Positions 1-23,647 of a DNA stretch of 24,141 nt are shown here, one piece after another (the first letter of the stretch is position 1; each line of letters starts with the position of its first letter). The notes under the pieces are model-generated. The model was not told the origin of the DNA. It made no database searches and worked only from the letters and a program-made list of their open reading frames with translations. This DNA comes from a virus. A program made the translations under genes and the position numbers. Location of the stretch: IMG/VR virus record IMGVR_UViG_3300048591_001680, positions 1 through 24,141 of that record. One strand, written 5' to 3'.

Positions 1-963
1 GTGGCTTCCGGACTGCTCGTACTGCTCGACGACGTCGCGGCTATTGCGAAGGCGGCGGCAGCGTCACTTGATGACGTGGCCGCCCAGGCGCTCAAGGCCG
101 GCGGCAAGGCGGCTGGAGTCGTCATCGACGACGCCGCCGTCACGCCAAAGTATGTGATCGGATTGTCACCGGCCCGCGAGATTCCCATCGTCTGGAACAT
201 CGCCAAGGGGTCGCTCAAGAACAAACTTGTCATTCTGATGCCCGCGCTGCTTCTTCTTGGGTACCTCGCGCCATGGTCGATCTCGCCGCTGTTGGCGGTG
301 GGAGGCCTGTTTCTGTGTTTCGAGGGCTACGAAAAGCTCGACCAGATGTTCCGCGGTTTCGCTCACCAGTCGCACGCCCCCACGGCTGACACGGTGGTTG
401 CACTGAATCCCGAAGAGCTCGAGCAGTTGCGGACTGCCGGCGCTATTCGAACCGACTTCATCCTTTCAGCCGAGATCATGGCGATCGCCTATGACGTCAT
501 ACGGGACGAGCGATTCGCGACACGGTTGGGCGTCTTGGTCGTGGTGGCGATAGCGATCACGGGAGGTGTCTACGGGTTCGTCGGTTTGATTCTCAAGGCG
601 GACGACCTCGGGCTCCACCTGGCGCGCCATGGCACCCGGGGCCCCCTCCGCAGCTTTGGAAGAATGTTGATCGCCGCGATGCCGTGGTTGCTCGTGGTGC
701 TCGGCTACGTAGGGACGGCTGCCATGCTTTGGGTTGGCGGCGGCATCGTGCTCCACGCGTTCCCACGAATCCATGACGTCATTCATGACAACGTCGCCGC
801 GATTGATCTCCCGAGCGCCGGGGCATGGGGTGTTGAAGCGGGCATCAGCCTGATCACGGGGATCGCCATCGGTTTCGTCGTCGCGTCGATCGTCGCCGTC
901 GCGAAGGCTTATTTCCGGAAGGATCGCGACATCAGCCGCTCGACTTCGTGGCGACAGGGATAA
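1..963 (+). CDS. DUF808 (YedI-like) inner-membrane protein, host flank
   Basis: A 320-residue protein starting with GTG at the window edge. The N-terminus (ASGLLVLLDDVAAIAK, then SLDDVAAQALKAGGKAAGVV and DDAAVTPKYVIG) is the hallmark opening of the DUF808/YedI family, a widespread multi-pass membrane family of unknown function. Hydrophobic segments are visible near residues 75-105, 175-200, 220-250 and 275-300. The length is close to the family norm, so the gene looks complete, although the start sits exactly at base 1 and its ribosome binding site cannot be seen. It is a typical chromosomal gene, separated from the phage genes by a terminator and an attachment-like site, so I read it as host flank. 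Family assignment is strong; the function is unknown. Confidence 0.88.
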   Translation: MASGLLVLLDDVAAIAKAAAASLDDVAAQALKAGGKAAGVVIDDAAVTPKYVIGLSPAREIPIVWNIAKGSLKNKLVILMPALLLLGYLAPWSISPLLAVGGLFLCFEGYEKLDQMFRGFAHQSHAPTADTVVALNPEELEQLRTAGAIRTDFILSAEIMAIAYDVIRDERFATRLGVLVVVAIAITGGVYGFVGLILKADDLGLHLARHGTRGPLRSFGRMLIAAMPWLLVVLGYVGTAAMLWVGGGIVLHAFPRIHDVIHDNVAAIDLPSAGAWGVEAGISLITGIAIGFVVASIVAVAKAYFRKDRDISRSTSWRQG

Positions 964-1034
964 CCGCCCGGTCGGATGTCGGGGTCATAACGAAAATGCG
1001 GACATGGGCAAGGATGCCAGCGCGAGGCAGGACT

Positions 1035-1053
1035 GGCCGGCACGATGCCGGCC
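1035..1053. other. Perfect 8-bp hairpin
   Basis: GGCCGGCA, a 3-base loop CGA, then TGCCGGCC. It lies between the end of the DUF808 gene and the minus-strand terminator. No T-run follows on the plus strand, so it is not a canonical terminator for DUF808, though it could protect the end of that mRNA. Confidence 0.5.
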
Positions 1054-1060
1054 CCGTTAC

Positions 1061-1097
1061 AAAAAAAGCCCGCAGGGGCCACGAGGGCCCTGCGGGC
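1061..1097 (-). terminator. Rho-independent terminator (minus strand)
   Basis: On the minus strand an outer 10-bp GC-rich stem (GCCCGCAGGG pairing with CCCTGCGGGC, positions 1068-1097) is followed directly by seven T (1067-1061). This is a textbook intrinsic terminator for a transcript coming from the right. The only candidate upstream on that strand is the tRNA-3'-end-like segment at 1134-1156, so it is probably the original terminator of a tRNA-type gene whose 5' part is now elsewhere. Confidence 0.8.
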
Positions 1098-1133
1098 GTA
1101 AAGTGGTGGGGGCGACAGCGGTCCACCATTGAA

Positions 1134-1156
1134 TGGCGGGCAGGATTCGAACCGCC
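1134..1156 (-). other. tRNA 3'-end-like segment, putative attL
   Basis: Read on the minus strand this segment contains GGTTCGAATCC, the signature of a tRNA T-arm, then TGCCCGCCA. The 5' side of the T-stem (GGCGG) pairs poorly with the 3' side (CCTGC), and no D-arm or anticodon arm can be built from the bases upstream. It is therefore a 3' fragment rather than a complete tRNA. It lies between an intrinsic terminator and a tyrosine integrase. That is what remains when an element integrates into a tRNA-type gene and the intact copy is rebuilt at the opposite end. Which tRNA is involved cannot be decided from this fragment, and the attL role is inference. Confidence 0.45.
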
Positions 1157-1262
1157 ACAAGCCGCACAACCGTTACCAGTGGACTGGTGGCGTCGGTGGA
1201 AACCGGGGATTCCCAACCCCCACCTACAGGGACGTGACCTATCCATAAGAGGGAGGGTTGCG
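1157..1262. other. Structured intergenic stretch between attL-like site and integrase
   Basis: No gene is seen here. The stretch carries an inverted repeat CGCCAC (1153-1158) / GTGGCG (1187-1192) enclosing CCAG/CTGG. A second hairpin has GGTGG (1195-1199) pairing with CCACC (1220-1224) and an inner GGGG/CCCC. Such pairs could be integrase arm or core sites or an RNA leader. Purine-rich GGGAGGG just before 1263 is the integrase ribosome binding site. Confidence 0.35.
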
Positions 1263-2165
1263 ATGACACTCGATGTATTTCTCGACACGGTCTATGTGCC
1301 GTTGAAGCTGCGTGGCCGATCAGAGGAGACCATCCGTCTCCTTCGCCACGCGATTCGTCAGTTCGGCTTGTGGCTCGGACACCCGGCCACGCTCGACGAT
1401 CTCGACGACCTGGTGGTGAGCCAGTTTCTCGCCGAGCGGGCGAAGAAGCTCAAACCCAACAGCGTCAGCCGCGAGCGGAGCGGATTGGTCGCGATCTGGA
1501 ACCTGGCCCAGCGTCGCGGCCTTGTGCGTTGCGGGCCGTGCGTCGCGCCGGAGCTCGTGCCCGAGCGAATCCCGAGAGCGTTGACGACTCGTGAGCTCGA
1601 GCTGCTATGGATCGCGTGCGGCAATGCGACGGGATGGGTTGGTCCGATCCACTCAGGCGTTTGGTTTCGCGCTCTGCTCGGGGCCCTCTTCTACTCCGGA
1701 GAGAGAATCACTGCGTTGCTGTCCGTTCCTCGCGACTGCTGGCGTAGCCCGTGGCTGTCGGTGCCTGCCGCTTGCCGCAAGGGATCACGTAAGCCGATGA
1801 GCTATCGATTCCCGGACGAGGTGGCCGCGCTCGTGAGCCGCGCGACATCGCACGATGGGCCGGTCGTCTTGTGGTGGCCTTACACCGACACAGCCCTGCG
1901 GAAGCGATGGAAGAACATCACGAAGGCGGCGGGGATCGGAGAGGGCTCTGACGTCCAGTTCCACGCGCTGCGGCGATCGTTTGCGAGCCACCTGACAGCA
2001 AAAGGTGGAGACGCCCGCGAGGGACTTGGGCATGCGTCAGAGCGGACGACTCGCCAGTACCTTGACCCGCGGATCACTCAGGCCGGCGAGCCAACGCCCG
2101 CCGACCTCTTGCCGCGGATATGGGACGCGCCGCCAGACGAACCACCGACGGCCGCTGCGGGGTGA
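1263..2165 (+). CDS. int: Tyrosine recombinase / phage integrase
   Basis: A 300-residue site-specific integrase that would cut and rejoin attP and attB. Residues 1-90 form an N-terminal SAM-like DNA-binding domain (helices around LRHAIRQFGLWL and SVSRERSGLVAIWNLA). The catalytic domain shows Arg148 (SGERITAL), a Lys at 173 or 177, His234-x-x-Arg237 (FHALRRSFASHL), His257 (GLGHAS) and the nucleophile Tyr266 (RQYLDPR), so the active site is complete. I chose ATG 1263 because GGGAGGG lies just before it. The same frame stays open back to 948, but that extension runs through the terminator and att region. It sits beside a tRNA-like 3' end, the usual integrase position. Family is certain; the target site is inferred. 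Confidence 0.93.
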   Translation: MTLDVFLDTVYVPLKLRGRSEETIRLLRHAIRQFGLWLGHPATLDDLDDLVVSQFLAERAKKLKPNSVSRERSGLVAIWNLAQRRGLVRCGPCVAPELVPERIPRALTTRELELLWIACGNATGWVGPIHSGVWFRALLGALFYSGERITALLSVPRDCWRSPWLSVPAACRKGSRKPMSYRFPDEVAALVSRATSHDGPVVLWWPYTDTALRKRWKNITKAAGIGEGSDVQFHALRRSFASHLTAKGGDAREGLGHASERTTRQYLDPRITQAGEPTPADLLPRIWDAPPDEPPTAAAG

Positions 2166-4908: not shown

Positions 4909-4955
4909 CGGAAGGACGGGTGGCCTGGGCTGTCTGCGGTCATGGAGGGTATGGC

Positions 4956-5858
4956 ATGTTCCGACGGGCCGGACCGCTCACGATTGGGGATCTCGCACGC
5001 GACTATGTCACCTACCGTGACTGCAAAACAGGCACCGTAAACCAGTACCGGATCGCGGCTCGACGGCTCGAAGAATGGGCCGGCCGAGGCGTGCTGCTTG
5101 CGGAGCTGAACGAAGGCCTCGTGTCGGAATGGCTCCGCGAGTTTGCGGGCGGTGCGTCTGCGTCGACGGTTCGTGGTAAGCGCGCGATGATCATGGCTCT
5201 CTGGCGGACCGCGGCCGACGAGGGCCTGTGCGAGCCGCCGACGCGGCGGGTGCGGGTGCTCCGGAAATCCACCCCCAGGCCGGCCGTGGAAGCCTGGACG
5301 ATCGATGACGTCGACCGGCTCCTGTCGGCCTGCCGCCGCCTCAAGCGTCGGCACCGCTGCGGCCTGAGCCGGGCGATGTGGTTCGAGCTGGCCGTCCGGG
5401 TGGCTTGGGACTCAGGGCTCCGGTGGCGGGATCTCGTCAGCCTGGAGGCCTCCAGCATCGCCGCAGACGGCCGATGTACTGTTGTCCAGGGGAAGACGGG
5501 CCGGCTGGCCCGCTTCCGGCTCTCAGGCACGACCAGGGCCCTTCTTCAGGAAACGATGCGTATCTGCCCTCGCGAGCTGGTCTGCCCGTGGCCGGCTTCT
5601 CAGCAGGCTTTCGGCCGGCAGGTACGCCGGCTCGTCGCCGCGGCAGGCATTCGGCCTGGCACGTGGCGGTGGATCAGGCGTGCGTCAGGCACCGACGTCG
5701 AGATCCAGCGGCCCGGTTCCGGGAGCGTTCACCTCGGCCACGCCCCCGGGTCGCGGGTCTTCCACGATCACTACGGGGCCACCGAGATCCTCGATCAATA
5801 CCGTCCGGCGCCGCGGGCGTTGGGCGTTGGGTTTTGCGTCTCAGGAGGACCACGATGA
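4956..5858 (+). CDS. Second tyrosine recombinase, atypical catalytic box
   Basis: A 300-residue tyrosine recombinase. The N-terminal domain (about 8-100) is the SAM-like core-binding fold. The catalytic part has Arg156 (SGLRWRDLVSLE), Lys180 (VQGKTGR), Arg241 (RWIRRAS), His262 (HLGHAPGSR) and Tyr273 (FHDHYGATEIL). The first His of the usual HxxR box is replaced: RWIRR stands where HDLRR is expected. That position tolerates some substitution in the family, so activity remains likely. ATG 4956 is preceded by GGAGGG at six bases, which I prefer over GTG 4920. It is not a close copy of the integrase at 1263. It might resolve multimers, invert a segment or act as a second integrase. It overlaps the next gene by four bases. 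Confidence 0.85.
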   Translation: MFRRAGPLTIGDLARDYVTYRDCKTGTVNQYRIAARRLEEWAGRGVLLAELNEGLVSEWLREFAGGASASTVRGKRAMIMALWRTAADEGLCEPPTRRVRVLRKSTPRPAVEAWTIDDVDRLLSACRRLKRRHRCGLSRAMWFELAVRVAWDSGLRWRDLVSLEASSIAADGRCTVVQGKTGRLARFRLSGTTRALLQETMRICPRELVCPWPASQQAFGRQVRRLVAAAGIRPGTWRWIRRASGTDVEIQRPGSGSVHLGHAPGSRVFHDHYGATEILDQYRPAPRALGVGFCVSGGPR

Positions 5859-8532: not shown

Positions 8533-8739
8533 TTAGTAGAAGGCCTCGCGGATACGTTTCACTTCGGAACGCAGCTCGACGACCACCGCGCTCAGCTCCA
8601 TGTGCCTGTCTTCCAGGTTCTGGATCCTTTCAGACGAGGACCCAGGATTCCGCAAAGATTTCACCTCCAGACCCAGGGTAAAAACGCGAAATGTCAGGAT
8701 TCCGAGCACGAAGACCAGGCATCCCTCCCGGAACGTCAT
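8533..8739 (-). CDS. Small membrane-anchored coiled-coil peptide (i-spanin-like)
   Basis: A 68-residue peptide with one N-terminal membrane helix (EGCLVFVLGILTFRVFTLGL, about residues 6-24). A charged heptad-like helix follows (NLEDRHMELSAVVVELRSEV). This is the general shape of the inner-membrane spanin Rz, though shorter than usual, and no overlapping lipoprotein partner (Rz1) is obvious. ATG 8739 overlaps the stop of the desaturase gene (TGATG). Its location among secreted and membrane proteins after the tail genes supports a lysis role, which remains inference. Other coiled-coil membrane peptides would look the same. Confidence 0.5.
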   Translation of the reverse strand: MTFREGCLVFVLGILTFRVFTLGLEVKSLRNPGSSSERIQNLEDRHMELSAVVVELRSEVKRIREAFY

Positions 8740-9266
8740 CACGCGGCCTCTCTTTCGGCCCGCGGCTCCACGTCAGCGACCCACCAGACAACCTCTTCCA
8801 CGGCCGGCCAGAAGCCGATCGCCGTGAGAACCGGGTTCACCCAGTCGGTCATGACGCAGTAGTTGCGGTCGAAAGGCTTCTTGTGGTGGCTGGCGTGCTG
8901 TTCCTGGCTTTGGATCACCCCCAGCATCTGCAGCCCTCGGATCGGCCGGCTGCACTTCTGATGGGCCCACGCGTGGATCTCGTTACCGAATCCAGCGAAG
9001 ACGAACACCAGCGCCAGCCACGGAGACCCAAGCATCCAAGCGACGGCCGCAATCACCCAACACGGCACGAAGGTCGTCCAGTTGCGGGTGACGAGGTTGC
9101 CCTGCAGGAACGCGGTCGGCTGCGAATGGTGCTCGATGTTCGGTGAGACCACCAGCGGCCCAATGATGGGCCAGTCCTCGACGCCGTAGCGGTCCTCCCA
9201 CCAATGGAAGACCCCGGATAGGAAATCCGCCATGAGCCACGCGAGGAAGATTTCGTGCAACGCCAC
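8739..9266 (-). CDS. CarF/TMEM189-family lipid desaturase (plasmanylethanolamine desaturase-like)
   Basis: A 175-residue integral membrane protein of the Lipid_desat/CarF/Kua family. Conserved blocks appear in the family order: His4; ADFLSGVFHWWEDRYG with His21 and Asp25; PNIEHHSQPTAF with His46-His47; GNEIHAWAH with His98 and His102; LQMLGVIQ; QEQHASHHKKP with His124, His127 and His128; and NYCVMTDWVNPVL with FWPAVEE. These histidines bind the di-iron centre in family members. The characterised enzymes (animal TMEM189/PEDS1, myxobacterial CarF) introduce the vinyl-ether double bond of plasmalogens. GTG 9266 begins just after the previous stop, with GGAAG eight bases upstream. The frame is open further to 9392, but that part overlaps neighbouring genes. 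The family is clear; the phage role is unknown. Confidence 0.9.
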   Translation of the reverse strand: MALHEIFLAWLMADFLSGVFHWWEDRYGVEDWPIIGPLVVSPNIEHHSQPTAFLQGNLVTRNWTTFVPCWVIAAVAWMLGSPWLALVFVFAGFGNEIHAWAHQKCSRPIRGLQMLGVIQSQEQHASHHKKPFDRNYCVMTDWVNPVLTAIGFWPAVEEVVWWVADVEPRAEREAA

Positions 9267-9271
9267 TTCGG

Positions 9272-9406
9272 TTACTTCCGGAAGGTCTGGACGACGTTTC
9301 GCAAGATCGCCGACGCGAGCCAAGCGACGAACAACACGCAAACGACAAACAAGACGATTGGCCCCACGTACAGCAGCAGGGCAATCCACCACACCCAGCC
9401 GATCAC
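9272..9406 (-). CDS. Small membrane peptide, 44 aa (holin-like)
   Basis: Begins at a GTG (9406-9404) overlapping the stop of the thioredoxin-like gene as GTGA. Almost the whole peptide is hydrophobic (WVWWIALLLYVGPIVLF, then FVAWLASAILRNV), enough for one long or two short membrane helices, with a basic end (RNVVQTFRK). The desaturase gene starts five bases after its stop. The shape fits a small holin or a membrane partner of the desaturase. It is too short to assign by sequence alone. Confidence 0.5.
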   Translation of the reverse strand: MIGWVWWIALLLYVGPIVLFVVCVLFVAWLASAILRNVVQTFRK

Positions 9407-10326
9407 CCCGCGGACGCCTTCGCCGAAGGCTTTGGCCCGGCTGCCGTCGAAGACTCGTTCTCGGTTCGGATGCTCTGCTCGAGCGCCGATAGACGGCTGA
9501 GAAGGGCCTCCGACAGCACTACCCTTCGGTCCCGCTCCTCCCGCCACTTCCTGACTGACCCCACAGCCAGTGGAAGGACGAATACCAGAGCGAGCGTCGC
9601 GCCCACCGAGATCACGACCAGACCCACCGTCGAAAGGCCCGCTACTCCCATCGACGGCGATGGGGGTGGAATCAGCGGCAGGCCGTCGGGAAAAACCACC
9701 GGTCCCGAAGGCACGGGGTCGTCACGCTTCGGGGGTGGAGACCATGGCGGGTCGTAATCCCGGAACGCAGTAGAAGCCGGGTCGGCCGTTGCCTGCACTC
9801 GCGTGACATACCTCCGAACCGCGTCGGTAATCTGCCGTGCGAGCTTCTCAGGATCGCCGCCGTAACCGCCCTGGTAGACCACGTCCTTCGGGTCGCCGTA
9901 CTTCCCATTGCGAGGCGGCTGGACGATCACTGTCGGGTAGCCCGTGACCTTAATCCCCTCGAACCGGAAGGCCTGGCTTTTGTCCTCTCGCGGGTAGATC
10001 TGGTAGTGGGCCCATGACCGCTTGGGATTGTCGGGGTCTGCGAGGGCGAGCAGGTGCTGGCTCGATCGCCAGTCCGCCTTGAGCCGCTCACAGGGGGCGC
10101 ACCCTTGCATGGTGAGAACGGAGACAAACCACTTCCCGGAGTCGTCGGGAGGGGTGGCCATCGCCTGAATGAAGGCGTCGTTTGCGTCCTGCCGGATGCC
10201 GTCGACGTGCTGCACGGTGTCGCCGAGGCGGAGCACCTCTGCAACGTCCACATCGGCGGGCTCATCGCCTCGCCCAGTTGCCGCGAACATCGCGACAACA
10301 ATCGCCACCAACACGGGCCACCTCAT
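9403..10326 (-). CDS. Membrane-anchored periplasmic thioredoxin-like protein
   Basis: A 307-residue protein. Residues 1-20 are a signal peptide (MRWPVLVAIVVAMFAATGRG). A thioredoxin fold follows (about 60-175), with redox motif Cys76-Ala-Pro-Cys79 (QGCAPCERLK) and the cis-proline loop at Tyr130-Pro131 (VTGYPTVIV). A Pro-rich linker (195-225) leads to one transmembrane helix (about 229-257) and a basic, then helical cytoplasmic tail. The active site would therefore face the periplasm, where it could make, break or sort disulfides. AGAAGGAG precedes ATG 10326. Placement directly after a secreted Cys-rich papain-like protein suggests a client relation. The fold is clear; the role in the phage is inference. 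Confidence 0.82.
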   Translation of the reverse strand: MRWPVLVAIVVAMFAATGRGDEPADVDVAEVLRLGDTVQHVDGIRQDANDAFIQAMATPPDDSGKWFVSVLTMQGCAPCERLKADWRSSQHLLALADPDNPKRSWAHYQIYPREDKSQAFRFEGIKVTGYPTVIVQPPRNGKYGDPKDVVYQGGYGGDPEKLARQITDAVRRYVTRVQATADPASTAFRDYDPPWSPPPKRDDPVPSGPVVFPDGLPLIPPPSPSMGVAGLSTVGLVVISVGATLALVFVLPLAVGSVRKWREERDRRVVLSEALLSRLSALEQSIRTENESSTAAGPKPSAKASAG

Positions 10327-10342: not shown

Positions 10343-10918
10343 TTACCACCACTGCCGATACGCCGGCCGCTCTGGGTGGGGGGGGTAATCGAGAATCACG
10401 CACCACTGGCCGCTCGCGAGATGGAGCCGCCGGAATGCCGCTTCGTCGTACTCGTCAATTCGGCTGGTCGAGTTGTTGTTGCAGACGTACCAGCGGCCGG
10501 CTGCCGGGTCGTAACCCGCAAGGGTCTGGAAATGAGCGGTAGCGGCGCCAATGGCACACGGGCGGCCGGTCGCGATGGCCCACTTCATCCACTCCCACGT
10601 GTGCGTGCCCGTGACGTTGTAGATGCGGATGCCTCGCCGGCGGGAGTATTCGGCGACACGAGACGGGTACGATCCGCCGCGCTCGGCGGGGCCGTATTCG
10701 GTGTCCCAAAGGAGCGTGGCCGCCGCCGGTACGTTCTGGTCGACCCCACACATCCCGATCGAGCACTGGACACACGAGCCGTCGGGGTTTTTGAACCACG
10801 CCCGGAGATCCTTCGGGAGGTCCATTGCCAGCCGCGGATCGCGCGGCTCGGCCTGCTGGGCGTAGCCGGCACCGACGCAAAGCAGAGCGACCAAGGCGAG
10901 AACGGAGGCGCGGATCAT
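10343..10918 (-). CDS. Secreted papain-like cysteine peptidase
   Basis: A 191-residue protein with a signal peptide (MIRASVLALVALLCVGAGYA). Three blocks fit a papain/C39-type active site: DGSCVQCSIGMCG with Cys49 or Cys52 as nucleophile, ATAHFQTLAGYD with His129, and WYVCNNNSTSRI with Asn147 or Asn148 as third residue. Between them lies GIRIYNVTGTHTWEWMKWAI, typical of the helical part of such folds. After export it could cut peptidoglycan peptides or envelope proteins, so it is a candidate endolysin or envelope-remodelling enzyme. ATG 10918 overlaps the previous stop by four bases. The peptidase call rests on motif order only. Confidence 0.65.
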   Translation of the reverse strand: MIRASVLALVALLCVGAGYAQQAEPRDPRLAMDLPKDLRAWFKNPDGSCVQCSIGMCGVDQNVPAAATLLWDTEYGPAERGGSYPSRVAEYSRRRGIRIYNVTGTHTWEWMKWAIATGRPCAIGAATAHFQTLAGYDPAAGRWYVCNNNSTSRIDEYDEAAFRRLHLASGQWCVILDYPPHPERPAYRQWW

Positions 10919-11313
10919 GCGGCGGGTCCCTTTCTGACGAGCTCAAGGATCTGTTCCATGGTTCCGCCGGCGAATGCAATCACCAGCGCGCGAAGAATGG
11001 GCTTGGCGAACGGCCACACTGGATAGAGCCAGACCGGCGCGGCGTAGCCGGCGACGACATCAAAGAGCCGGCCGACGAGATCCATGACGGCGGCCTTCTT
11101 TTCCTCGTTCGTCATTCGTTCGACGGTATCGAGGAACGCGGTCGATAGCTTCATCAGCGACGACGTCAGCTCGGAGAACTCGGACCACGAGAGGCCGTCT
11201 GCGGCGACCTGGCGGGCGTTCTGGATGAACGCCAGACCCTTGTCGTAGATGTCGCCAGGCGTCAGAAACCCAGCCTCTGGGAGGGCGACAATCGCGGTGG
11301 AGACGCTGGTCAT
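10915..11313 (-). CDS. Hypothetical phage protein, 132 aa
   Basis: ATG 11313 is preceded by GGAGGG at nine bases and overlaps the stop of the 76-residue gene as ATGA. The frame is open further upstream, but that part overlaps the neighbour and looks non-coding. Residues 20-85 are helical (IYDKGLAFIQNARQVAADGL, TNEEKKAAVMDLVGRLFDVV). The C-terminal part is moderately hydrophobic (PFAKPILRALVIAFAGGTM) and could associate with a membrane. It leads directly into the secreted-enzyme cassette, so a holin-like or chaperone role is possible but unsupported. Confidence 0.55.
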   Translation of the reverse strand: MTSVSTAIVALPEAGFLTPGDIYDKGLAFIQNARQVAADGLSWSEFSELTSSLMKLSTAFLDTVERMTNEEKKAAVMDLVGRLFDVVAGYAAPVWLYPVWPFAKPILRALVIAFAGGTMEQILELVRKGPAA

Positions 11314-16399: not shown

Positions 16400-17331
16400 G
16401 CCGCCCCCGCAAACGCGTCCGCTGGCTGGCCAAGAGTGGGGAATGGGTTGCCGATCAAGAGGTCGGCAAAATCTCCGCTCGGGCCGGTGCACTCGATGTA
16501 GACGAGCTTTGGTCGTTTGATGATGTGGTCGTGGTCCTCGCTCGTTTCATACTGGACCGACATATGGTCGTGGCCAAACTTTGTGATCTCGGCATAGCCG
16601 ACCGTGAACGTACGGTTTGGTATGGCCGTGAAGTTGAAATTGACCGCAACAGAGGATTGCCCCTGCGTGATCAGCCCCCTCGCTCCGTGGAACTTCACTT
16701 CGCCGGCATCGAAGATTCGCCACGGCTTGCTGTTGATCCTCCCCGTCATCAGGTACAGGGTGCGGATGTAGCTGGCGAGCACAAACGTCGACGGAAAATG
16801 CCACGTCTCGTTGAAGGTGAACGCGGGCACCGGGACATCGACACCCTGGACCTGGTCGCCTTGGACGTTGATGGCCCCGTCGAGATTTGGAACCGGGGTG
16901 TCAGGGGCTGCGCCTTCGACGACGAAATATCCTTTTTGTCCAGTTGCCCCCGCAGCCGTTGTTTTGTCTTCGCCACGATAGGCCTGCGTGATGTGCTCCG
17001 TGCCGCCGGTCGTGTCAAACTCGAACGTCGCCGGCTTCGGTTCCTCTCCGCCGTCGCCTTCGCCATCACCGGCATTCACTGCCGGGTTGTGGTAGTTCGC
17101 CGAAACGAGATAGAAGCCGTTTCCTTGCGAATCGAGGTTGAGGTTCTTCCGGCGATGGCTTCCGATCAGCCGAGGTGCGATCTCCTCACCCTTGGCCTCT
17201 GCGGAAGAGTACGACGTCATGCCGCTGATGAGCCAGCGGAGCGTCACGTTCCGAGAAACGGAGCCGTCGTCGCCGATCTCCAGGCTTCCGGATTGAGAGT
17301 CGAACAGCGGTATGACGTCAGGCACGCTCAT
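16396..17331 (-). CDS. Phage minor tail / distal-tail-like protein, 311 aa
   Basis: Directly follows the tape measure gene with a four-base overlap, the position where distal tail and tail-tip proteins are encoded in siphoviruses. It is strand-rich (SRNVTLRWLISGMTSYS, SVAVNFNFTAIPNRTFTVGY), with an acidic Gly-rich loop (GDGEGDGGEE) near residue 90 and a His-rich stretch (KFGHDHMSVQYETSEDHDH) near 255. No catalytic motif is seen. The assignment is positional; no specific family is recognised. Confidence 0.62.
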   Translation of the reverse strand: MSVPDVIPLFDSQSGSLEIGDDGSVSRNVTLRWLISGMTSYSSAEAKGEEIAPRLIGSHRRKNLNLDSQGNGFYLVSANYHNPAVNAGDGEGDGGEEPKPATFEFDTTGGTEHITQAYRGEDKTTAAGATGQKGYFVVEGAAPDTPVPNLDGAINVQGDQVQGVDVPVPAFTFNETWHFPSTFVLASYIRTLYLMTGRINSKPWRIFDAGEVKFHGARGLITQGQSSVAVNFNFTAIPNRTFTVGYAEITKFGHDHMSVQYETSEDHDHIIKRPKLVYIECTGPSGDFADLLIGNPFPTLGQPADAFAGAA

Positions 17332-19457
17332 GCGAACGCCACGCCTCCGTTTTTCACTTCACGGATCAGTTCCTTGAGAACGCGCGTTTGATCCTTGACC
17401 TCGGCAAGCATCTTTTCGGTCGCAGACATCATGTCGCGGTCCACCTGGGTCTTCGCGGTCTTCCCCTTGGCAATGTCGGCGGCGGCCTTGAGGCCCTCGT
17501 CAATGCTCGCGAGCTTCCCAGCCATTTCCTTCGTGGCGATCGCCGTCTGCTGTGCAGCTTCGAGCTGCGGGCCGATGCCCTGGACGTTGCTCGAATAGCC
17601 GGACAGCGTTGCCGCCTTCACGCCTTCGCCGGCCATGCCAGACTCACCGGGCGCTGGCATCTGAGCCTTGAACTCGGCCATCGCCTTCTGCATCCCCGTG
17701 GCGAGGTCTTCTTGCTTTTGGTCCGCCTCTGGCTTTGCCAACGCCTTTTCTTCAAGCCGCCGCAGATCGTCGCGAAGGGTGTCGATCGTGGCCTGCCGGA
17801 ATTCGCGATGAGCGTCGGACTCTTTCTTTCGCTGGTCCGAAATCTTCTGGCGGCCTTCCTCGCCGAGCGTCTCGAAAGCCTTGGCACCGGTCAGTCCGGC
17901 GATTGCGTTCACGGCGCTGGCGAGCTGGTCCCCGATGAACGTGGCGGCATCAAGGACACCGTTTTTCAGTTCCAGCCACAGGTCGCCAAAAAATCCGGCC
18001 ATCCGCTTCAGGGCGATGGCGGTTTTGGTGATCATGATCTGCCAGGCAGTGCTGAAATCGAGCCTGCTCATCGACGCCATGATCGCGTCCGTCGACTTCC
18101 GGAACTCCGGATTCATCTGACGGCCCATGAAAATCATTCCCGCAATCGCCGCCGAGAACCCCATGACGGCGAGCCCCATTGGCGTGAAGAGCGCCGGGAT
18201 CAGCGTCATCGCGTTCTTCACGAGCCCCAGCCCCCCGGCAAGAAACTTCAAGGCGAATCCGCCAGCTATCGCGGCGAGGCCGAACGCAAAGACGCCACCC
18301 GTAGCCGCGGCGACAACCTGGGCAACAATCGGAAACTGCTCGAGCAGTGCTCTAAGGACGCCGGAAAGCCACGTGGCCCCGGCCGCAACGACCTGCAGGC
18401 TCGGGGCGAGCGCGTCGCCGAACGCGAGGGACACGCCCTCGATGGCGCTCCACAGGATTCGGAGCGAGCCGCCGAGGCCAGCATCCATCTTCTTGGCTGT
18501 CTTCTCTGCGATGTCACCGGCGCCGACGATGTTCTTGTGAAGTGTGCGGGTGTCAGCCACGGCCCCAGCGATTGCCGCGGCCCCGGTGATTCCCAATAAT
18601 CCAAACGCTTCGTTGAACTTCGCCATCCGATCACCGCTTGGCATGTTGGCCGTGGCTGCGGCGACCTCTCCAAGCGTGTCCACGAGCGGTCGGATGTTCC
18701 TGTCAGCGTCGAGAAACGAGACGCCGAAGATCTTTTTGAGTTTCTCGGCCTCGGCTCCGGTGATCGTGAGGAGGCGGCGCACCGCCGTGCCTGCGTTGCT
18801 GCCCTGGATACCGACGTTCCCGAGCGTGCCGAGAATCGCGGCCGTCTCTTCAAGAGACATGCCGGCGTCTGCTGCATTCTTGCCGGCATAGCTCAAGGCT
18901 TCGCCCAGACCCTCCACCGTGTTGAACGACATGTTGGCGGCGGCCGTCAGCGTGTTAGCCACGCGCGTGGCATCTGCGGCGCCGAGCCCGAACTGACGAA
19001 TCGATGCGGCCATGATGCCGGAGGCGAGCGTCGCATCCGTGCCCGTCGCCCGCGCGAGGTTCATGACCGCTCCGGTCATCTCCTCGATCTCCGCTGGCTT
19101 GAAGCCGGCTCGACCAAGCTCCGCCATCAGAAGAGCGACCTGGGCGGCTGTGAAGCTCGTCGTGGCGCCCAGCTCGCGAGCCCGCTTGGTGAGCGAAGCA
19201 AGCTCCGGATCGGTCGCCTGGGCCACGGCCCCCGTCATCCGGATCGCGTCATCGAACGCCGTGAACTGACCGAGGGCCAGCACCATGGGCGCTCCAACCA
19301 TCGCCGCGCCCATGGCGAGATTGCGGCCGACATTCTGCATGGAAGCCCCCATGCGATTCATGCGGGCCTGCATGCGAGCCATCGCCTGATGAAACTTCCC
19401 GTCCTTCGCGAAGATTTCGACGAATGCCGCGCCGGCTCTGACTGCACCTGCTGACAT
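17328..19457 (-). CDS. Tail tape measure protein (TP901 family)
   Basis: A 709-residue protein. Residues 60-300 show the TP901-type core: FDDAIRMTGAVAQATDPEL, TSFTAAQVALLMAELGRAGF, SGIMAASIRQFGLGAADATR, AANMSFNTVEGLGEALSYAG and LGTLGNVGIQGSNAGTAVRR. Hydrophobic helices occupy about 360-460 (FAFGLAAIAGGFALKFLAGG), as is usual for proteins that help DNA cross the membrane. Charged coiled-coil stretches follow near the C-terminus. At about 1.5 angstroms per residue the tail would be near 100 nm long. It starts six bases after the stop of the frameshifted tail chaperone, the canonical order. Confidence 0.93.
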   Translation of the reverse strand: MSAGAVRAGAAFVEIFAKDGKFHQAMARMQARMNRMGASMQNVGRNLAMGAAMVGAPMVLALGQFTAFDDAIRMTGAVAQATDPELASLTKRARELGATTSFTAAQVALLMAELGRAGFKPAEIEEMTGAVMNLARATGTDATLASGIMAASIRQFGLGAADATRVANTLTAAANMSFNTVEGLGEALSYAGKNAADAGMSLEETAAILGTLGNVGIQGSNAGTAVRRLLTITGAEAEKLKKIFGVSFLDADRNIRPLVDTLGEVAAATANMPSGDRMAKFNEAFGLLGITGAAAIAGAVADTRTLHKNIVGAGDIAEKTAKKMDAGLGGSLRILWSAIEGVSLAFGDALAPSLQVVAAGATWLSGVLRALLEQFPIVAQVVAAATGGVFAFGLAAIAGGFALKFLAGGLGLVKNAMTLIPALFTPMGLAVMGFSAAIAGMIFMGRQMNPEFRKSTDAIMASMSRLDFSTAWQIMITKTAIALKRMAGFFGDLWLELKNGVLDAATFIGDQLASAVNAIAGLTGAKAFETLGEEGRQKISDQRKKESDAHREFRQATIDTLRDDLRRLEEKALAKPEADQKQEDLATGMQKAMAEFKAQMPAPGESGMAGEGVKAATLSGYSSNVQGIGPQLEAAQQTAIATKEMAGKLASIDEGLKAAADIAKGKTAKTQVDRDMMSATEKMLAEVKDQTRVLKELIREVKNGGVAFA

Positions 19458-22376: not shown

Positions 22377-22853
22377 TCAGAGTGTTGAGGCTTCACGAAA
22401 CGCCTGGTCGATCTGCTCACTCGTGAATCCGAGAGCGGACGCCATCGGGACGAGCCAAGCGTGCGTGCGTTCAACGTAGGGGGCGTATTCCCACTCGACG
22501 CGAACGGCCTCACGGGTTGCCGCGTCCTCGATCGAGTCGATGGCGGCCTCGACGGTCGCCATGCTCACGCCGTGGGCGACAAGCCAGAGCCGAATCTGTC
22601 GGGCGGAGACCTGCGACGGCACAGGCAGCACGATAGCAGTACGCTCCCACTCCCCAACTGCTTCGTTCCACTGGAACTTGAATCCAGCCTCTCGCTGGAG
22701 TTGAGGGTTGGTGACATCCCCGTCATGGAGAATGGCGTTCCTCATGGCCGCTGCCTTAGCGGCAAGGGCGTCCGAGATTTCCACAGTCCGAGCGTTCGGC
22801 TCGTCAAGGATGCGGAAGATGCGACCACGAGGACCGACGATTGCGTATTTCAT
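22377..22853 (-). CDS. Tail-fibre-assembly-like protein, 158 aa
   Basis: The C-terminal half carries SARQIRLWLVAHGVSMATVE, EAVRVEWEYAPYVERTHAWL and GFTSEQIDQAFREAS. These are the hallmarks of a small domain found at the end of many phage tail-fibre-assembly and fibre-associated proteins (the R-LWL...VEWEYA...IDxxF pattern). The N-terminal part (YAIVGPRGRIFRIL, FKFQWNEAVGEWER) is a separate beta domain. It overlaps the sulfotransferase stop as ATGA. A host-contact role is likely. Confidence 0.65.
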   Translation of the reverse strand: MKYAIVGPRGRIFRILDEPNARTVEISDALAAKAAAMRNAILHDGDVTNPQLQREAGFKFQWNEAVGEWERTAIVLPVPSQVSARQIRLWLVAHGVSMATVEAAIDSIEDAATREAVRVEWEYAPYVERTHAWLVPMASALGFTSEQIDQAFREASTL

Positions 22854-23647
22854 AGCGCGTTCACCCAGTCGAATTTCTGTTGAAGAACATCACAAAGCTG
22901 ACGCCCGAGCATGTCGTGCCAGTACGGAACAAGCGGCCTCACCTGCGGGCGAACCTTGTGCTCACCGTAGGGCCATCCCATTTCGACCTCGTTCGTGTAT
23001 TGGGCTACGTTGTCGAAGTCGTGATCGTCGAAGTCCTCGCCGAGATAGTCCCACACTCGGGCCATCGTCTCGGCTGGCTTGGAGCAAAGGTCTTCGGCGT
23101 GAACGAACAGCAGGCGATCCTTGAACCGTTTGGCGGCTTCGTGGACCCGCTTGATGGCGATGCCGATGGGCGGCTCCTCCAGCCAAGCCTGGCATCGGCC
23201 TTCGATGGTCGGCCAGGCGGTCTTGTACTTGGCTTCGATGCCAGACATGGGGGCCGGGTTCTCTCGCCGCCTTCGCTCCATGGATGCCAGGATGCCACGA
23301 ACGTCCCGCACAGGAACAAGGACTTTGGCGTTCGGCCAGACTTGGAACGTCTGGTCAAGGTGGCCGACCCATGACCGGCACTTGTCCACCACCACCGGGC
23401 GGTCGGTCAGGCTGTCGAAAGCATGGGCACACCCTCCACGAACGTAGTCGTAGTATTGCGTGGCTGCATCCTGCGGGTTGACGAAGCACCGAGCCTCTTC
23501 GGTCTGGAACACCTGCCGGGCGATGTACCCAATCTCGTGCAGCATCGAAGACTGCGTTCCATGCACACGAGGGTTCTGTGACAGCAGGTTGACGAGCAAC
23601 GTGCTGCACGAGAACGGGAGGCCGGAAACGAAGTGGATCGTCTTCAT
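22850..23647 (-). CDS. P-loop sulfotransferase family protein
   Basis: A 265-residue sulfotransferase. The 5'-phosphosulfate loop lies at residues 6-18 (VSGLPFSCSTLLVN). VVDKCRSW follows at 86-93. The 3'-phosphate binding strand and helix are at 109-122 (VLVPVRDVRGILASM, with Arg114 and Ser122). VHAEDLCSKPAETMARVWDY near 205-225 is the usual late motif. The enzyme would move sulfate from PAPS to a sugar, lipid or peptide. Such genes occur in environmental phages, some near tail genes, and might modify virion or host-surface glycans. It is coupled by ATGA overlaps to both neighbours. Family is clear; the acceptor is unknown. Confidence 0.85.
   Translation of the reverse strand: MKTIHFVSGLPFSCSTLLVNLLSQNPRVHGTQSSMLHEIGYIARQVFQTEEARCFVNPQDAATQYYDYVRGGCAHAFDSLTDRPVVVDKCRSWVGHLDQTFQVWPNAKVLVPVRDVRGILASMERRRRENPAPMSGIEAKYKTAWPTIEGRCQAWLEEPPIGIAIKRVHEAAKRFKDRLLFVHAEDLCSKPAETMARVWDYLGEDFDDHDFDNVAQYTNEVEMGWPYGEHKVRPQVRPLVPYWHDMLGRQLCDVLQQKFDWVNAL

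Follow-up and report, generated by a model that had tools for sequence, protein, structure and literature searches.

The 24,141-nt stretch of DNA analyzed here (the window), from the IMG/VR virus contig IMGVR_UViG_3300048591_001680, encodes on its minus strand (8739..9266) a 175-residue protein of the Lipid_desat family (PF10520) that belongs to a distinct, mainly phage-borne branch of that family, referred to below as N-type. On balance, we favor the reading that this protein is an active membrane diiron lipid desaturase, carried as accessory cargo in a late operon of a planctomycete phage. We infer its activity, substrate, electron donor, timing and benefit to the phage, and the substrate and type of reaction are suggested by analogy with the family.

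Family membership, predicted fold and conserved residues

The likely start of the gene is a GTG at 9266 (MALHEIFL...) and its stop is at 8739, with the mechanical open reading frame (ORF) extending upstream to 9392. The protein matched the Pfam PF10520 profile over its full length (profile positions 1-174 of 175; E 2.2e-41; score 142 bits, cutoff 26.4), which is far beyond chance. The original prediction had placed it in this family from its HWWED, EHHSQP, NEIHAWAH and HASHH blocks, all of which are present in the ORF, and had called for its metal-binding histidines to be retained; they are. By spacing, H21, D25, H46, H47, H98, H102, H124, H127 and H128 of the phage protein correspond to H96, D100, H121, H122, H187, H191, H215, H218 and H219 of mouse PEDS1, a residue list taken from PMC8960569, in which mutagenesis showed that the eight histidines and the aspartate are essential for PEDS1. 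All nine positions are invariant in a 40-row alignment of phage and cellular N-type sequences, and AlphaFold2 predicted a largely helical structure with high confidence (pLDDT 95.6, pTM 0.90). The best named viral fold match in BFVD was a Harvfovirus protein that likewise bears the Lipid_desat name (A0A3G5A308; E 4e-6, TM 0.67) but is of giant-virus origin and only 21% identical.

Two other positions distinguish the phage protein from PEDS1. The position of PEDS1 F118 is occupied by an invariant Asn (N43) and that of PEDS1 H131 (CarF H113) by Gly (G56), with positions matched by spacing and by bacterial sequences; no verified sequence from human, M. xanthus or a plant was among those aligned. 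Every phage copy that was readable at both positions has Asn at the F118 site and none has His at the H131 site, whereas 20 planctomycete homologues have Phe at F118, 14 of which also have His at H131. Werner et al. found that mutants of PEDS1 at F118 and H131 have 6% and ~7% activity left, respectively, and H131 is retained in PEDS1 but not in FAD4 (PMC8960569); plant and alphaproteobacterial homologues without this His did not replace CarF (reviewed in PMC9131029). On the NCBIfam CarF equivalog NF045946 the phage protein scored 86 bits, far short of the cutoff of 500; this test is strict, since two F118-type planctomycete proteins, at 239-251 bits, also miss the cutoff. FAD4, the chloroplast 16:1 delta-3-trans PG desaturase, resembles the phage protein in belonging to PF10520, in having the eight His and the Asp and in missing the PEDS1-only His (PMC8960569), but it retains F118 (PMC8960569) where the phage protein has Asn; this comparison uses published descriptions of FAD4.

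Several PF10520 proteins encoded in Planctomycetota genomes (L102, L105-L108 and L110-L118) have Phe at F118, an HxxxD motif and mostly His at H131. Judged by these residues, they are candidate genuine plasmalogen desaturases of Planctomycetota.

Phylogeny and distribution of the N-type branch

N-type proteins share the motif pattern HxxED ... PNxxHH. A maximum-likelihood tree separated the N-type side from 18 other rows (17 with Phe and the divergent L129) with support of 100/99, and the divergent L131, which has Ile at the F118 site, grouped among the N-type rows. The window protein lies inside a planctomycete-phage clade of 28 rows, 26 of which are viral (94/92), and a second, mostly alphaproteobacterial-phage clade comprises seven rows (98/88); the host names of both clades are putative, being based on a few members in named genomes. 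N-type genes were present at 73 IMG/VR viral loci (two scans) and at 14 loci among 84,980 species genomes, both counts being lower bounds from an exact-pattern search. Thus, the original prediction, which knew of no characterized example in a phage, had not come upon an isolated case; the branch is present in at least two phage clades and is sparse in chromosomes. It is not exclusively viral, because copies in Roseibacillus, Flavobacteriales and the genomes G235, G160 and G474 lie in ordinary chromosomal surroundings. No plasmid copy of the desaturase was found, distant blastn searches with the desaturase neighborhood returned no phage record, and PHROGs v4 contained no family matching any of five N-type members. 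At one cellular locus (L139:8679-10455), a gene for a Rieske oxygenase (PF00355, 7.5e-21) comes after the N-type desaturase gene, which is a possible clue to the electron supply or pathway of that desaturase.

One cultured lytic phage, Erythrobacter phage vB_EliS-L02, carries an N-type gene (ORF 2337-2873, OL955261), whose product is 43% identical to the window protein over 85% of the query. The gene is located between phoH and the portal gene rather than beside protease or TM genes and is annotated as encoding a "hypothetical protein", and the paper describing vB_EliS-L02 does not mention a desaturase. Phage lipid desaturases are already known as a kind (PMC7300359), and the Lipid_desat name is already attached to a giant-virus protein. 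Like the N-type genes, the cyanophage and Arctic vFAD acyl-lipid desaturase genes are phage genes predicted to desaturate host membrane lipids (PMC7300359, which refers to a 2018 paper on lipid desaturases of cyanophages), but their products resemble stearoyl-CoA desaturase, with three histidine motifs, and do not have the PF10520 histidine pattern. The literature searched, which covered few subscription journals, yielded no description of PF10520 proteins from phages.

Genomic context of the window desaturase

The window record is a fragment of a virus contig. A tail tape-measure gene (17328..19457, minus strand; PF10145, 1.1e-42, and PHROG tape-measure families) is located upstream of the desaturase gene in the same leftward gene series, and the window also contains a weak tail-completion match and an integrase-like gene (948-2165, plus strand), part of which matches Phage_integrase. 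These genes and the virus record rule out a chromosomal locus and bear out the phage location originally proposed. No terminase or portal was found among those window proteins that were searched. Also in the window, an ORF at 4920-5858 (plus strand) resembles the integrase-like gene and has a 78%-identical homologue in the locus L006, a sulfotransferase-like gene (22850-23647; PF13469, 5.3e-15) lies within the phage structural region, and an open-ended ORF at the contig edge (23644-24141, minus strand) is built of repeated GSLTIPDSVTSIGGSAF-like units.

The desaturase gene is part of a leftward operon on the minus strand, flanked as predicted by two small membrane peptides. Along the operon, the order runs from a 132-residue protein with a hydrophobic C-terminal part (10915..11313), which is holin-like by shape only, has homologues in L006, L025 and L031 (the L006 homologue was used to set its start) and matched no family. 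Next is a candidate exported cysteine peptidase (C39/papain-like; 10343..10918), with Cys, His and Asn in conserved blocks and 71-92% identical homologues. This candidate had no Pfam match, and its low-confidence model (pLDDT 57.5) showed only weak fold similarity to C39 and papain-like peptidases. The gene after that (9403..10326) encodes a Trx-like protein that is predicted to be exported and anchored in the membrane, with a CxxC motif (GCAPC), a proline-rich linker, a C-terminal TM segment and a sub-threshold Thioredoxin_2 match (E 0.07). Its stop is overlapped by the GTG of a 44-residue hydrophobic membrane peptide (9272..9406), which is followed by the desaturase, the stop of which is overlapped in turn by the start of a 69-residue peptide (8533..8742) with one N-terminal TM segment, a charged, possibly coiled-coil tail and no credible Pfam or PHROG match. 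L006 has the identical gene order, including a 44-residue counterpart and a homologue of the 69-residue peptide, and in L025 a similar TM peptide follows the Trx-like gene.

The Trx-like and peptidase pair is conserved in L006, L025 and two Planctomycetota genomes. In L025, 3.4 kb separate the desaturase and Trx-like genes, and neither of the two Planctomycetota genomes yielded an N-type desaturase, indicating that the desaturase is optional cargo and that the Trx-like protein is not a partner dedicated to it. Such a redox role of the Trx-like neighbor, suggested by the FAD4 and PRXQ case, was rejected because the pair occurs in those genomes, where no N-type desaturase was detected, and because the signal peptide and C-terminal TM segment of the Trx-like protein would place the Trx domain outside the cytoplasm. 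Relatives of the window peptidase gene are present in 3 of 392 Planctomycetota genomes, two of them close (71-80% identical); the regions containing the two close relatives include a phage capsid gene (L145) or a tape-measure gene (L146), and one of these two regions sits inside a 7-Mb contig. Because the peptidase has relatives in Planctomycetota genomes that are accompanied by phage genes, the sequences suggest a planctomycete host for the window phage.

In planctomycete phages generally, a protease gene often precedes the N-type gene, and small membrane proteins tend to be encoded close by. In seven other representative copies (L044:6812-7930, L048:6577-7941 and five other loci), the gene directly upstream encodes a trypsin-like protease that appears to have a signal peptide and carries a membrane segment at its C-terminus (the one tested matched no PHROG family), and two copies besides those in the window and L006 have a papain-family protease just upstream. 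Small TM genes occur no more than two genes away in 11 of 40 phage copies, compared with 5.6 expected under random placement within those loci (p 0.0055), a difference that is suggestive only, as obtained with a simple gene finder of our own and a hydropathy rule. In other phages the N-type gene is near portal or terminase genes. Among the window neighbors there was no holin, endolysin or spanin family match in Pfam or PHROG, only holin-like and spanin-like shapes and the peptidase candidate. The proposed connection with lysis is modest and only partly supported: small TM genes and proteases recur nearby, but none of the neighbors could confidently be called a lysis gene. A role in the envelope or in lysis late in infection is no more than plausible, and within the window's clade rather than in general.

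Proposed function and alternatives

On the favored reading, the protein would be made late in infection, would insert into the inner membrane and would draw on O2 and host electrons. It would put double bonds into the chains of host phospholipids, and membrane packing would be altered near the time of envelope breakdown. The absence of the desaturase from related prophage regions counts against this reading, as do the modest lysis link and the position of the gene beside portal or terminase genes in other phages.

The original prediction described a CarF/TMEM189-type plasmalogen desaturase. An enzyme with true CarF/PEDS1 function would produce vinyl-ether lipids in the planctomycete host, with altered redox or light responses. 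Like CarF and TMEM189 (PEDS1), the plasmanylethanolamine desaturase, the phage protein belongs to PF10520 and has the eight His and the equivalent of Asp100 at matching spacing; the residual activity of PEDS1 F118A and H131A means that the missing residues are no strict bar, and F118/H131-type homologues in some Planctomycetota genomes mean that suitable lipids may exist in such hosts. However, both residues are substituted in all readable phage copies, homologues without the His did not replace CarF, the CarF equivalog score is far below its cutoff, the N-terminus is shorter and the protein falls in a separate clade. We therefore do not retain the CarF/TMEM189 designation and consider a true plasmalogen desaturase quite unlikely; plasmalogen formation by the phage protein is unlikely and a vinyl-ether product is disfavored. 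Because its branch is separate and two residues important in CarF/PEDS1 are missing, the phage protein probably has a different effect on the membrane lipids of its host.

A second alternative is that the protein is a lipid hydroxylase, adding oxygen to the chain on the same diiron scaffold. The closest solved fold to the desaturase model was the fatty-acid 2-hydroxylase Scs7p, a weak match (TM 0.43-0.46), the FA_hydroxylase profile matched just below threshold (29.9 versus 31 bits), and the invariant change from F118 to Asn is close to the ligands. The Lipid_desat score is much higher (142 versus 30 bits), however, and the fold ranking is biased because sequence searches of the PDB found no relative and no PF10520 structure, and we regard a hydroxylase as unlikely. 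It is similarly improbable, in our judgment, that the gene acts in lysogenic conversion (a moron) rather than late in lytic growth, altering the membrane of the lysogenic host, for instance to protect it from superinfection or stress. Its accessory nature and absence from related prophage regions, the N-type copies in Mu-like and other prophage-type loci and its cargo-like position beside exported proteases fit such a gene, whereas its location on the same strand as its tightly packed or overlapping operon neighbors, and the homologue in a lytic phage, do not. We thus continue to favor a late-expressed lipid desaturase. It is possible, though we would not expect it, that the N-type proteins form a hitherto unrecognized class of enzyme, the third after PEDS1 and FAD4, whose lipid product is new, and that Planctomycetota and Alphaproteobacteria phages acquired this class and retained it beside proteases as part of an envelope-remodeling module.

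Our results indicate that a PF10520 match in a phage or bacterial protein should not be taken to identify a plasmalogen enzyme until the F118 and H131 positions have been checked. With the homologue in the cultured phage vB_EliS-L02, which infects Erythrobacter litoralis DSM 8509, what a lipid desaturase does for a phage can be tested directly.
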